From Xanthobacter autotrophicus (GTDB lineage Bacteria > Pseudomonadota > Alphaproteobacteria > Rhizobiales > Xanthobacteraceae), in contig NZ_VAUP01000015.1 in assembly GCF_005871085.1 (NCBI RefSeq), positions 248,001 to 312,000 of the forward strand: a stretch of 64,000 bases of DNA, read 5' to 3'. Below the pieces are notes generated by a model. That model was not told the DNA's origin, did not search any database, and saw nothing but the letters and a program-made list of their open reading frames with translations. The position numbers and the translations under genes were made by a program. The stretch's first letter is position 1; each line of letters opens with the position of its first letter. This document shows, in pieces, positions 9,369-13,680 of this stretch.

Positions 9369-10400
9369 TCAGCGCACGGCTTCGGCGAGATCGGCAAAGA
9401 TACGGAACACCAGCGCCTTGCGATCGAGATTGAAGACATCCGCCTCGCGCGCGCTGCGCCGCACCTTCTCCCATACCTCGCCCAGGCGGACAAGGCGATG
9501 GCGCGGCTCTTCACCCTGCGTCGCACGGGCGGCCACATAGTCGCTCACCGCCTCGATGAAGAGGTCGAGCCCGTCGGAGCGGTCGCCCTGCAGGCGAGCG
9601 CCCAGCGCATGAAGGTCCTCCGGGCGGGGCCGGGGCAGTTGCTCCAGCGCCTTCAGGGTGGCGGAGCGCACCTCCATCCCCTCTCCCCGCGCCAGCACGA
9701 TGGCCCGGCGCACGCTGCCGCCGCTGGCTTCGGCGGCGGACGGCAGGGTAGCGGCGTCGAGGTCCGCCATCTCCTCCTTGAGGTGATCGAGGGCGGCGAG
9801 CACGTCCGCATTGCCGAGGGGACGCATGCGCAGCAGGCGGGTGCGTGAGCGGATGGTGGGCAGCACCCGGCCCGGCGCATGGGAGATTAGCAGGAAAAGC
9901 GCCTTGGGCGGCGGCTCCTCCAGCGTTTTCAGAAGCGCATTGGCGCCGAACGGGTTGAGTTCGTCCACCGCGTCCACGATGCAGACGCGCCAGCCCCCTG
10001 CCGCCGCCGTGGCGCCGAAGAAGCTGCGCACCCGCCGCACCATCTCGGCCGGAATGACGGTGGGGATCTTCTCCTCCCCCGCCTCGGGCACCCGGTGCAG
10101 CACCAGAAGGTCCGGATGGCTCTGGGAGGCCACCTGCCGGAACACCGGATGGGTGGTGGGCAGGTCCAGTGAATGGCTGCCGGCCTGGGGGCCGCCGGAC
10201 AGCACCATGCGGGCGAGGCGATAGGCCAGCGTCGCCTTGCCGATTCCCTCCGGCCCGCCGATGAGCAGGGCGTGGGGCAACCGGCCGGCGCGGAAATCGC
10301 CGATCAGGTCGGATTCGACCACCCCATGGCCGAACAGTCGCGCCTGGTCGCGCGGGTGCGGCGCGCCGGGCAGCACATCGCCGGAGACGGTCTCGCTCAT
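9369..10400 (-). CDS. holB: DNA polymerase III subunit delta'
   Basis: A 343-residue clamp-loader ATPase-like subunit. The N-terminal AAA+ fold shows a Walker A-like [20 protein letters not shown] near residue 45 and the SRC-like sensor region [17 protein letters not shown]. The central strand [20 protein letters not shown], followed by [17 protein letters not shown], is typical of DnaX/HolB proteins. Delta' works with delta and tau/gamma to load the beta clamp at the fork. ATG at 10400 begins [20 protein letters not shown]; the frame continues upstream into tmk but without support. It follows tmk after 49 bases. Confidence 0.92.
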
Positions 10401-10449
10401 GGGATGCGCTTCTCTGGCACGCGCTTCCTTGGGCTCGGGGCCGGCGCCA

Positions 10450-11103
10450 TCACGACGCCTGCGCCACGGCGTGAAGGCCGAGGCGTGCGGCGACGATGCC
10501 TGCGATCTCGGCCGCCACCGCGTCCGGATCGGGGGTCGCATCCACCAGCACGCAGCGCCTGGGCGCCGCCGCCGCGCGGGTCACGAACGCCTCGCGCACG
10601 GCCGCATGATAGGCAGCACCTTCCTTCTCGAACCGGTCGGGATTGCCTTCACCGCGCGCAGCGGCGCGGGCAAGGCCGATGTCGGGCGGCACGTCCAGAA
10701 CAAGGGTGAGGTCGGGGCGGGTGCCGCTGGTCGCCATCTCCTCCAGCGCGTCGAGGAGATGAGGCTGCACCTGGCCGACGGCGCCCTGATAGACACGGGT
10801 GGAATCGATGAAGCGGTCGCAGATCACGATGATGCCTGCCGCCAGCGCCGGGCGGATCAGCGTCGCCACGTGGTCGGTCCGGGCGGCGGCGAACAGCAGC
10901 GCCTCGGCCACCGGCCCCAGCGGCTCGGCGGCGCCCGAGAGCAGTACATGGCGCACGGCCTCCGCTCCCGGCGAGCCGCCGGGCTCACGGGTTTCCACGA
11001 CCTGGTGGCCGAGGGCGCGCAGATGCGCCGCAAGGCGGCGGGCCTGGGTGGACTTGCCCGTTCCCTCCCCGCCCTCGAGCGTGATGAAGTGGCCCCGGGT
11101 CAT
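10450..11103 (-). CDS. tmk: Thymidylate kinase
   Basis: A 217-residue dTMP kinase, which phosphorylates dTMP to dTDP for DNA synthesis. The P-loop is at the N-terminus (ITLEGGEGTGKSTQARRLA), followed by the thymidylate kinase signature ETREPGGSPGAEAVRHVLL and the DRFIDSTRVYQGA motif in the middle. Length and motif order are those of bacterial Tmk. Its ATG overlaps the TGA of the upstream dac gene (ATGA), which points to translational coupling, and holB follows. Confidence 0.95.
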   Translation of the reverse strand: MTRGHFITLEGGEGTGKSTQARRLAAHLRALGHQVVETREPGGSPGAEAVRHVLLSGAAEPLGPVAEALLFAAARTDHVATLIRPALAAGIIVICDRFIDSTRVYQGAVGQVQPHLLDALEEMATSGTRPDLTLVLDVPPDIGLARAAARGEGNPDRFEKEGAAYHAAVREAFVTRAAAAPRRCVLVDATPDPDAVAAEIAGIVAARLGLHAVAQAS

Positions 11104-12299
11104 TTATGAAGCTTTGCCATGGTGCGTTTGGCCAGATCCCGCACGCTGTCGCCCATCAGCGTCAATCCGCCGTCGAGGGCGCGATCCACCAGCGAGCCCA
11201 CCGGCACGTCCTCCTGCGTGTAGAGCGGGATTTCCAGCACCTTGGTCTGGCCTCGCGTCACTTCCAGCCGGCCCACCTGCGTGCCCTTGGTCACCGGCGC
11301 GAGCAGCGGCCCGGTATAGATGGCCCGGGCCGTGATGCGCTCGTTACCAGCGCGTGGGGTCAGCACGCTCACCGGCCGTCCGCCCACGAGGCCGACGCTG
11401 CTGGCAGCGCCGCCGAACACCTGGGCGCGGCCCACCTCCTGGTCGGCGGCGAAGATCACCCGCTGGCGGAATGATTGGAAGCCCCATTCCACCAGCTTCC
11501 GGGTTTCGTCGAGACGCTCTTTCTCCGACTTCGCCGCCAGCACCACCACGATGAGCCTCTGGCCGTTCTGCACCGCCGAGCCGAGGACGTGGTAGCCCAC
11601 ATCCTTCACCCAGCCGATCTGGAGCCCGTCCGCCCCGATGCCGGCATCCAGCAACACGTTGCGATTGCGCTGCTTGATGCGGCTCCACTCGATGCCGGGC
11701 CGCGCGAAGACCGGATAATAGTCGGGATAGGTGCGGATGATGTGCCGGGCGAGCAGGGACAGGTCGCGGGCCGTGGAGAACTGGCCCGGATCGGCGAAAC
11801 CCGTGGCATTGCGGAAGTCGGAATTGGCCATGCCGATGGCCTTGGCCTGCTCCGTCATCATCTGCGAGAATTCACTCTCGGTGCCGCCGATGCCTTCCGC
11901 CAGCGCCATGGCTGCGTCATTGCCCGAAACCACGAGCATGCCTGCGAGAAGCTCGCCCACGGGGGCGGGCTTGTTCACCTCGGCGAACATGGCCGCGCCG
12001 CCCGAGGGGCCGCCGCCTCTCCGCCACGCGTTGACGCTCACGGTGAAGGGCGTGTCGAGGGCGATCTTGCCCGCCTTGAGCTGGGAGAACACCACGTCCG
12101 CGGTCATCACCTTGGCGAGGGTGCCGGGGGCGATGCGGCGGTCGGCGTCCTTCTCGAACAGGATGGTCCCGGTGTCGTAGTCCACCAGGATGGCGGAGGG
12201 TGCCTGGGTCTGGAAACCGTCGGCGGCCCCTGCGCGACCTGCACCGGCGAGCGCCGCGATGGCCACGAGAAGAAAGGCGAAGCGAAGCTTCGGCAACAT
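11100..12299 (-). CDS. D-alanyl-D-alanine carboxypeptidase family protein (PBP5/6-like) with altered catalytic motifs
   Basis: A 399-residue periplasmic member of the peptidase S11 (DacA/C/D) family with a signal peptide (residues 1-26, ending AGAGRAGAA). The fold landmarks are present: AILVDYDTGTILFEKDADRR, the second motif SGN in LVVSGNDAAMALAEGIGG (Ser125), and the C-terminal beta domain. However, where family members have the nucleophile serine in SxxK, this protein has Thr60 (APGTLAKVMTA), and the third motif KTG is QIG (Gln227, in GLQIGWVKDVGYH). I checked both on the nucleotide sequence. Activity as a carboxypeptidase is therefore doubtful. It lies between rlpA and tmk, overlapping tmk by 4 bases, the normal site for this gene in the order. 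Confidence 0.85.
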   Translation of the reverse strand: MLPKLRFAFLLVAIAALAGAGRAGAADGFQTQAPSAILVDYDTGTILFEKDADRRIAPGTLAKVMTADVVFSQLKAGKIALDTPFTVSVNAWRRGGGPSGGAAMFAEVNKPAPVGELLAGMLVVSGNDAAMALAEGIGGTESEFSQMMTEQAKAIGMANSDFRNATGFADPGQFSTARDLSLLARHIIRTYPDYYPVFARPGIEWSRIKQRNRNVLLDAGIGADGLQIGWVKDVGYHVLGSAVQNGQRLIVVVLAAKSEKERLDETRKLVEWGFQSFRQRVIFAADQEVGRAQVFGGAASSVGLVGGRPVSVLTPRAGNERITARAIYTGPLLAPVTKGTQVGRLEVTRGQTKVLEIPLYTQEDVPVGSLVDRALDGGLTLMGDSVRDLAKRTMAKLHK

Positions 12300-12483: not shown

Positions 12484-13350
12484 TCAGCGCGCGCCCTCGG
12501 GAACACCGGCAAACCCCAGGCCGCTCACGGGGGCCGGACCGGCGGACCAGCCCGACGCGCTCGCCACCGCCACCGTTCCGGCGCTGGAAGCGGGGCTTCC
12601 GGACGTGCCGAGATCATAGGGCCGCGACGGCGGCACCGGCGCCTCCGCGCTGGGTGGGGTGGAAGCCGGCACAGCGCGCACCGAGGGCACCTCGGGCACG
12701 AATGGCCGGGCCGACGCCACCATGACCGGCGAGGTCATTTTCAGATCCGCGAGGGTGCCATCCTGGCGCAGGGTCGAAGCCAGCTTGACGTCGTCATCCT
12801 CGTTGATGGGCGCGCGGCCCATGTAATCCACCCGCACCCGTGCGACGCCGAACTTGGCGAAGCCCAGCAGTTCGGCGGTGCGATAGGAGACGTCGATGAG
12901 GCGGCTCCCCACATAGGGCCCGCGATTGTTCACGCGCACGATGATGGAGCGCTTGTTGGCAAGATTGGTGACGCGCACATAGGACGGCATGGGCAGCGTC
13001 TTGTGGGCCGCCGAGATGGAGCCCATGTCGAAGATCTCCCCGTTGGCGGTCTTGCGCCCGTGGAAATCCTTGCCGTACCAAGAGGCGAGGCCCTCGGCGG
13101 TGTAATCGGGGTTTTCCGCCGGCACATAAGTGCGCCCGGCCACCGTATACGGCTTGCCCACCTTGTAGCCGCCGCCGCCGCGCGGCACCGGATCCCCCTC
13201 CGCCACCACGCGGGGGCTGGCCGAGACGCCATAGAGCGGGTCGATCTTGCTGCCGAGTGTGTCGATGGAGCCGCATCCCGCGACCGCGAGGCAGCCGGCG
13301 AGCGTCGCCGCCAGTTTCGCTCCCGAACCGCGACTGGCCCTTGCTGTCAT
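12484..13350 (-). CDS. rlpA: RlpA family septal ring lipoprotein / lytic transglycosylase
   Basis: A 288-residue lipoprotein. ATG at 13350 gives a signal peptide with lipobox cysteine in CLAVAGCGS near residue 26. The double-psi beta-barrel follows: TAEGLASWYGKDFHGRKTAN, then VRVNNRGPYVGSRLIDVSYR with the catalytic-type aspartate. RlpA in Pseudomonas is a lytic transglycosylase acting on denuded glycan strands at the septum. The C-terminal 80 residues are rich in Pro, Ala and Ser, and no SPOR domain is visible, so septal targeting by SPOR is not expected. It heads the cluster rlpA-dac-tmk-holB-metG, with 184 bases before dac. Confidence 0.87.
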   Translation of the reverse strand: MTARASRGSGAKLAATLAGCLAVAGCGSIDTLGSKIDPLYGVSASPRVVAEGDPVPRGGGGYKVGKPYTVAGRTYVPAENPDYTAEGLASWYGKDFHGRKTANGEIFDMGSISAAHKTLPMPSYVRVTNLANKRSIIVRVNNRGPYVGSRLIDVSYRTAELLGFAKFGVARVRVDYMGRAPINEDDDVKLASTLRQDGTLADLKMTSPVMVASARPFVPEVPSVRAVPASTPPSAEAPVPPSRPYDLGTSGSPASSAGTVAVASASGWSAGPAPVSGLGFAGVPEGAR

Positions 13351-13680
13351 TGCCGCGCCATGGGGCGTCGGACAGGACTGATGCGAGGCGGCCGGGATTC
13401 GCGGAAGGAAGTGCAACGACGGTCCCCTCTTCATCGATGCCCGGTCTCCTGCTTGCGCCGAAACCCGGCCGGGATGTCTTCAAGGCGCGCGCCGTCCTTG
13501 AGCCGGACAACCGCATTCTCCGTCAAAAGCATGGCTAATGACGGCAAAAATGGGGCGAACCCGCGGCCATGGTTAATCCGATGTGTCTTTCGCGGAGCTC
13601 TCGACGGGTGCGGGCGGCTGGGCTAGATGAGGTCTTCAGCCGGACTCGGGACCGGGCTTCACCGCCCCGGATGCCTCTTC
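13351..13680. other. Intergenic region between rlpA and tRNA-Ser
   Basis: This 330-base stretch lies between divergently oriented rlpA and the tRNA gene and should hold both promoters. I found no convincing open reading frame, repeat or RNA element in it. Frames that cross it in either direction are short and lack coding character. Confidence 0.5.

Follow-up and report, generated by a model that had tools for sequence, protein, structure and literature searches.

A DacA/PBP5 orthologue in Xanthobacter as a probable recurrent pseudoenzyme of the Hyphomicrobiales, so far found only in MreB-less genomes

1. The dac locus of Xanthobacter

The window, the whole stretch of 64 000 nucleotides of Xanthobacter DNA that was analysed, contains a dac gene (Table 1) in a cluster that reads, according to Pfam, rlpA-like (DPBB), dac, tmk, holB-like and metG (methionyl-tRNA synthetase). 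The dac product matches the Peptidase_S11 family (PF00768) with an E-value of 4.8e-58 (196.9 bits against a gathering score of 27.6) and PBP5_C with an E-value of 2.8e-18 (66.3 bits against a gathering score of 21.2), and its closest named matches are from X. oligotrophicus (92%) and then from other Xanthobacter. The S11 and PBP5_C domains and the adjacency of rlpA and dac place it by descent among the S11 proteins of the DacA (PBP5) type, and because of this domain order and neighbourhood the protein is a DacA/PBP5 orthologue. Among the three motifs of an active S11 enzyme only S-x-N is found in it: S-x-x-K lacks its serine and K-T-G is absent.

The preliminary description of this DNA had read T60-L-A-K63, S125-G-N127 and Q227-I-G229 in an otherwise intact, syntenic gene. 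The codons (ACC 60, AAG 63, TCG 125, AAT 127, CAG 227, ATC 228 and GGC 229) confirm this reading, and the gene is indeed full-length (399 aa), with both domains and neighbours of the rlpA, tmk and holB types. The Xanthobacter protein also has alanine at position 102, where 149 of 155 intact orthologues have serine. The stop codon of dac and the start codon of tmk overlap in AAATGA (window positions 11100-11103), which suggests translational coupling of a wall protein and thymidylate kinase.

Table 1. Features of the dac region, in window coordinates
Feature	Position	Strand	Remarks and basis
dac, DacA/PBP5-type S11 homologue with degraded catalytic motifs	11100..12299	minus	399 aa; ORF, translation, Pfam, orthologues
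Putative signal peptide, residues 1-26	12222..12299	minus	A-x-A end judged by eye; model helix 4-18
Peptidase_S11 domain, residues 30-257	11529..12212	minus	Pfam; block with pLDDT >=90 from residue 31 on
T60-L-A-K63, replacing S-x-x-K	12111..12122	minus	Translation, alignment, codons
S125-G-N127 (SxN motif), kept	11919..11927	minus	Translation, alignment, codons
Q227-I-G229, replacing K-T-G	11613..11621	minus	Translation, alignment, codons
PBP5_C domain, residues 277-366	11202..11471	minus	Pfam; found in 54/54 aligned orthologues
C-terminal amphipathic helix, residues 370-398, probable membrane anchor	11106..11192	minus	Low-confidence model helix; hydrophobic moment
rlpA-like gene (DPBB_1), conserved neighbour	12484..13434	minus	Pfam; annotated beside dac in S. 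meliloti and E. coli
tmk, thymidylate kinase	10450..11103	minus	Pfam; start overlaps dac stop
holB-like gene, DNA polymerase III delta' subunit	9369..10541	minus	Pfam; coordinates are those of the ORF, start putative

2. Extent of the change within and near Xanthobacter

Glutamine replaces the KTG lysine in all 14 best loci of the genus (L004-L017, from the 14 genomes searched). At position 60 these loci have threonine in nine cases, serine in four and alanine in one, and in X. tagetidis SGN is replaced by GGN. Eight loci from four sister genera have glutamine or histidine at position 227 and glycine (6/8) or serine at position 60. The 22 loci of the five genera, all of one family, form a single clade with a support of 100, and the KTG lysine is missing from every one of them; the next-closest genus in the search (g39) has three intact loci with the same tmk neighbour. 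The preliminary description had named orthologues with standard motifs as a sign that the change is a local mutation. Such orthologues exist outside the clade, but the alignment shows the altered form to be clade-wide in five genera and to recur across the Hyphomicrobiales. A local mutation or chance change is rejected, since none of the 14 congeneric loci has the KTG lysine.

3. Recurrence across the Hyphomicrobiales

A locus was scored as intact if it had S60, K63, S125, N127, K227, threonine or serine at 228, and G229. Three partial rows (L175, L234 and L283) and a partial second match (L018 in genome G012) were left out before the final counts and the tree. The 248 Hyphomicrobiales orthologue loci then comprise 155 intact and 93 degraded ones; loci near Xanthobacter and additional loci from degraded genera are over-represented among them, so that counts by genus are fairer. 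By genus label, 57 of 172 are degraded and none is mixed, although the named loci L101, L409 and L410 may fall in genera already counted under a code. On a maximum-likelihood tree built with the motif columns removed, the fewest state changes are 13 by parsimony, or 18 if loss is irreversible; the true number of losses may be higher or lower, because the gene tree groups some degraded families with low support (60-67). On a first tree of 197 rows, ten changes sufficed, compared with 55.7 on average when the labels were shuffled. The intact and degraded states are thus strongly clustered, yet distributed over many separate clades. In other alphaproteobacterial orders all 87 loci were intact (27 + 60, picked from the better-scoring part of the matches in a search of 143 genomes, low-scoring matches lying outside the sample).

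Family f22, which is Rhizobiaceae-like, has 53 resident loci in the sample, 31 of them degraded. The orthologue of the root-nodule bacterium Sinorhizobium meliloti Ak57 has SxxK, with LAN in place of SxN and ATG in place of KTG, and its annotated cluster runs rlpA-dac-tmk-holB-metG, continued by tatD; that of Shinella sp. PSBB067 has FAN and VTG. The remaining S11 genes in the two sequence records concerned (three and two, respectively) have intact motifs. One S. meliloti record, L409 (CP090106.1; 3.7 Mb), is titled plasmid pSymB but has the tmk-holB-metG core cluster; it looks chromosomal and mistitled. A different route of loss is seen in genus g72 of family f32, where in 9/9 loci (L197, L200, L202, L247, L254 and L291-L294) the SxxK lysine is replaced by threonine and the SxN asparagine mostly by glycine, and KTG is kept. 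In one genome of family f16 (G141) and two of family f42 (G167 and G203), the query found only matches at the level of paralogues, and the DacA orthologue seems to be missing.

An artefact of sequencing or alignment, or a mixing of paralogues, is a general risk of large automatic samples, and nothing more speaks for it here. Its probability is negligible: the motifs are contiguous in many independent assemblies, the tmk motif lies downstream of 68/69 loci not scored intact (and of 120/127 intact loci), PBP5_C is present in 54/54 aligned orthologues and a named S. meliloti record shows a loss of the same kind.

4. Residues lost and kept

The residue that the 93 degraded loci most often lack is K227 (83 loci), followed by S125 (48), S60 (28), K63 (10, the other 83 keeping it) and N127 (nine). 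At least two of these five S/K/S/N/K residues are lost in 72 loci; the 21 loci with a single loss might keep some penicillin binding or activity. W92, M104 and R262 are kept in 93/93, and S102 is replaced in 57/93. The enrichment of loss at the motif columns is partly a matter of construction, as `degraded' is defined on those columns. A non-circular test was based on the 27 positions with a conservation of 95% or more both in 52 PBP5-type loci (51 mostly from outside the Hyphomicrobiales and one E. coli copy) and in 60 paralogue loci. Here K227 is kept in 68% of genera, S125 in 77%, T228 in 83%, S60 in 92% and G229 in 95%, and K63, N127, R262, D128, G167 and G225 in 99-100%. D179 (to glutamate) and V252 (to alanine) vary more than the motif residues, by similar residues.

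In E. coli PBP7, any one of the substitutions S67A, S124A and K231A is enough to remove both the binding of Bocillin and the strong toxicity, the K70A protein stays toxic, and the KTG lysine has been proposed to be an electrostatic anchor of the substrate (PMC11586513). Residues S67, S124, K231 and K70 of PBP7 are the counterparts of S60, S125, K227 and K63; the losses described here therefore fall on residues shown by experiment to matter.

A threonine nucleophile, considered in the preliminary description, is rejected because position 60 is threonine, serine, alanine or glycine among close relatives, all of which lack the KTG lysine. Altered catalysis in the wider sense, by a hydrolase with threonine or some other nucleophile or with a new substrate, would agree with the intact predicted fold, nearest to PBP6 and PBP5, and with the presence of K63, S125 and N127 in the Xanthobacter copy. 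It is nonetheless very improbable, as the four alternatives at position 60 in close relatives occur together with Q227 or H227, asparagine is also found at this position elsewhere in the order and, among the degraded loci, none of the replacing residues is conserved.

5. Structure model

An AlphaFold2 model of the Xanthobacter protein (mean pLDDT 88.7, pTM 0.80) was calculated from an alignment with 53 orthologues, intact relatives among them, and the predicted structure consequently does not prove an intact pocket. The best match in the PDB is E. coli PBP6 (3it9; TM-score 0.86 by target). The nearest solved structures are this protein and the PBP5s of P. aeruginosa and E. coli; by sequence, the nearest solved relatives are likewise PBP5/PBP6-type carboxypeptidases. 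The C-terminal helix of E. coli PBP5 is amphipathic. The hydrophobic moment of the Xanthobacter tail has a z-score of 1.8 relative to shuffles of the same tail, and degraded and intact loci hardly differ in this amphipathic signal (median z 1.67 and 1.60, respectively).

The Xanthobacter protein resembles E. coli DacA (PBP5) and DacC (PBP6) in domain order, fold and C-terminal amphipathic helix, which in PBP5 is mentioned as a membrane anchor (PMC4916385), and rlpA also lies beside dacA in E. coli K-12. It differs from both in the replacement of the nucleophile serine and the KTG lysine, and downstream of dac it has tmk and holB where E. coli has ybeD and lipB.

6. Constraint on dac and its paralogues

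All 93 degraded ORFs are full-length. In 11 of 12 Xanthobacter pairs dN/dS is 0.08-0.17, the remaining pair (L004-L010) giving 0.31; six pairs of intact orthologues give 0.11-0.25 and the intact paralogue in the same genus 0.01-0.12. In the four pairs that include the window's genome, dac has dN/dS of 0.11-0.15 compared with 0.06-0.12 for the intact paralogue. The dac protein is under purifying selection, perhaps somewhat relaxed. One mark of a pseudoenzyme, a fold and a full-length gene kept under purifying selection, is thus found here, and a pseudogene as the main reading is rejected on account of the full-length ORFs and the low dN/dS.

In 30 genomes chosen for a degraded orthologue, both S11 paralogues are intact (30/30 each, 60/60 loci), and the loss therefore belongs to the DacA orthologue and not to the S11 proteins of these genomes generally. 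The search for another DacA-like enzyme proposed in the preliminary description yielded two motif-intact S11 paralogues in the window's genome, one with a C-terminal stretch that by eye resembles a SPOR domain and the other with a long low-complexity tail. The S13 family (PF02113) has no match in the window's assembly.

Such redundancy raises the question of slow decay, in which the remaining carboxypeptidases meet the need and the protein is gradually disappearing, retained for the time being by its operon position. The two intact paralogues, the overlap of dac and tmk and the apparent absence of the orthologue from some f16 and f42 genomes would fit this explanation. We regard it as distinctly improbable, since all 93 degraded genes are full-length, purifying selection at the amino-acid level is like that on intact orthologues and entire genera and families retain the gene; coupling of translation would by itself leave the protein sequence unconserved.

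In seven genomes of family f22 a PBP5-type gene occurs twice, the second copies being L395, L398, L400, L402, L403, L405 and L407. The second copy is intact in 7/7 and the resident copy degraded in 7/7, with tmk found by the resident in six; no tmk motif was found downstream of the seven second copies, which are unlinked to it. In the tree the seven second copies are grouped in a single clade with a support of 99, which lies outside the remaining orthologues of the Hyphomicrobiales. From their sequences they look like a replacement acquired from elsewhere, though they may stem from an ancient duplication.

7. MreB and the mode of growth

MreB was called at E < 1e-100 in 80 genomes of our choosing, 40 with a degraded and 40 with an intact DacA. 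It was found in six of the 80, all with intact DacA, and in 0/40 degraded genomes; the other 74, the window's genome included, gave only poor matches, with E-values of about 1e-16 at best, that we take for other actin-fold proteins. As many as 34 of the 80 genomes lack MreB yet have an intact DacA. An exact test of MreB against DacA state gives p = 0.026, a value that ignores relatedness and depends on our 40/40 choice of genomes. The six MreB genomes fall in one 25-tip part of the tree, in which the sole degraded locus (L216) comes from an MreB-less genome. Absence of MreB seems close to necessary, and insufficient, for the loss of catalysis.

It is common among the Hyphomicrobiales for MreBCD, RodA and PBP2 to be missing, for growth to proceed from a single pole and for LD-crosslinks to be abundant, and in A. 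tumefaciens a gene termed `dac', not necessarily the tmk-linked one, is synthetically essential without certain LD-transpeptidases (PMC11527210). As a tentative scenario, which we hold to be possible rather than probable, loss of the MreB elongation machine and the adoption of one-pole growth may have led to recruitment of DacA as a non-catalytic subunit of polar growth. Its activity would then have become dispensable and been lost a dozen or more times, in S. meliloti too, and an intact DacA would have been regained from outside the order in one Rhizobiaceae-like lineage.

8. Discussion

The Xanthobacter DacA/PBP5 orthologue is, with a probability that we put at roughly 0.8, a recurrent pseudoenzyme that is kept for a non-catalytic role and so far occurs only in MreB-less genomes. 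The protein is most likely still exported and anchored in the membrane with a PBP5 fold, judging from the predicted structure and the putative signal peptide and terminal helix. It would have no D,D-carboxypeptidase activity, as the PBP7 mutants suggest, because the substrate-anchoring KTG lysine and the nucleophile serine are gone. Its role may be that of an adaptor without hydrolytic activity in the machinery of envelope growth or division, acting through protein contacts with a partner that is perhaps the RlpA encoded next to it or some other enzyme of the wall. Such a conversion would have taken place many times in the Hyphomicrobiales, in the tested genomes only where MreB is absent, with the catalytic motifs preserved in two further S11 proteins. 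The preliminary description had offered a structural or regulatory role beside the threonine nucleophile; the former has become the best-supported reading, to which the conserved gene, neighbours, fold and C-terminal domain, the purifying selection and the repeated loss all point, and the latter has fallen away.

A dead protein could also act as a shield, binding D-Ala-D-Ala stems and guarding them from the active carboxypeptidases; the growing pole would thereby retain its pentapeptide donors. According to PMC4916385, E. coli PBP6a seems to lack carboxypeptidase activity and may shield pentapeptides, and the inactive PBP5(S44G) worsens cell shape, implying that an inactive protein of this type can act in the cell. 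K63 and N127, moreover, are mostly kept. We nevertheless think such a shield unlikely: with the KTG lysine lost in 83/93 loci and S102 replaced in 57/93, retained binding is not suggested. As no residue is lost more often than this substrate-anchoring lysine, we favour a scaffold or regulator.

Wall hydrolases are already known to include pseudoenzymes. PBP6a (DacC) is, like the Xanthobacter protein as predicted here, an S11 protein with little or no activity in the cell (PMC4916385), but an E. coli dacC copy (L412) keeps PASLTK, SGN and KTG, whereas in the Xanthobacter protein the motifs themselves are gone. DipM, an inactive LytM-domain regulator, is another dead wall-hydrolase fold kept in alphaproteobacteria, and it binds and stimulates active autolysins (PMC10336132). 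By analogy the DacA pseudoenzyme may work in a similar manner, although DipM is of an unrelated fold and family. The four S11 genes of S. meliloti are given as putative DD-carboxypeptidases (PMC7327166). In the open-access literature we found no earlier report of a loss of S11 DacA catalysis on this scale; one may exist elsewhere.

Genes labelled `D-Ala-D-Ala carboxypeptidase' in many Hyphomicrobiales, S. meliloti included, are probably not carboxypeptidases, and mutants in such dac genes, together with the peptidoglycan data, would then need a different reading. The order also provides a natural experiment in which the catalysis of the PBP5 family is separated from any other role that these proteins have, the chemistry having been repeatedly discarded while the sequence stays constrained. 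For bacteria whose elongation machinery is poorly known, this provides a lead, open to experimental test, to a component of polar growth that is still missing.
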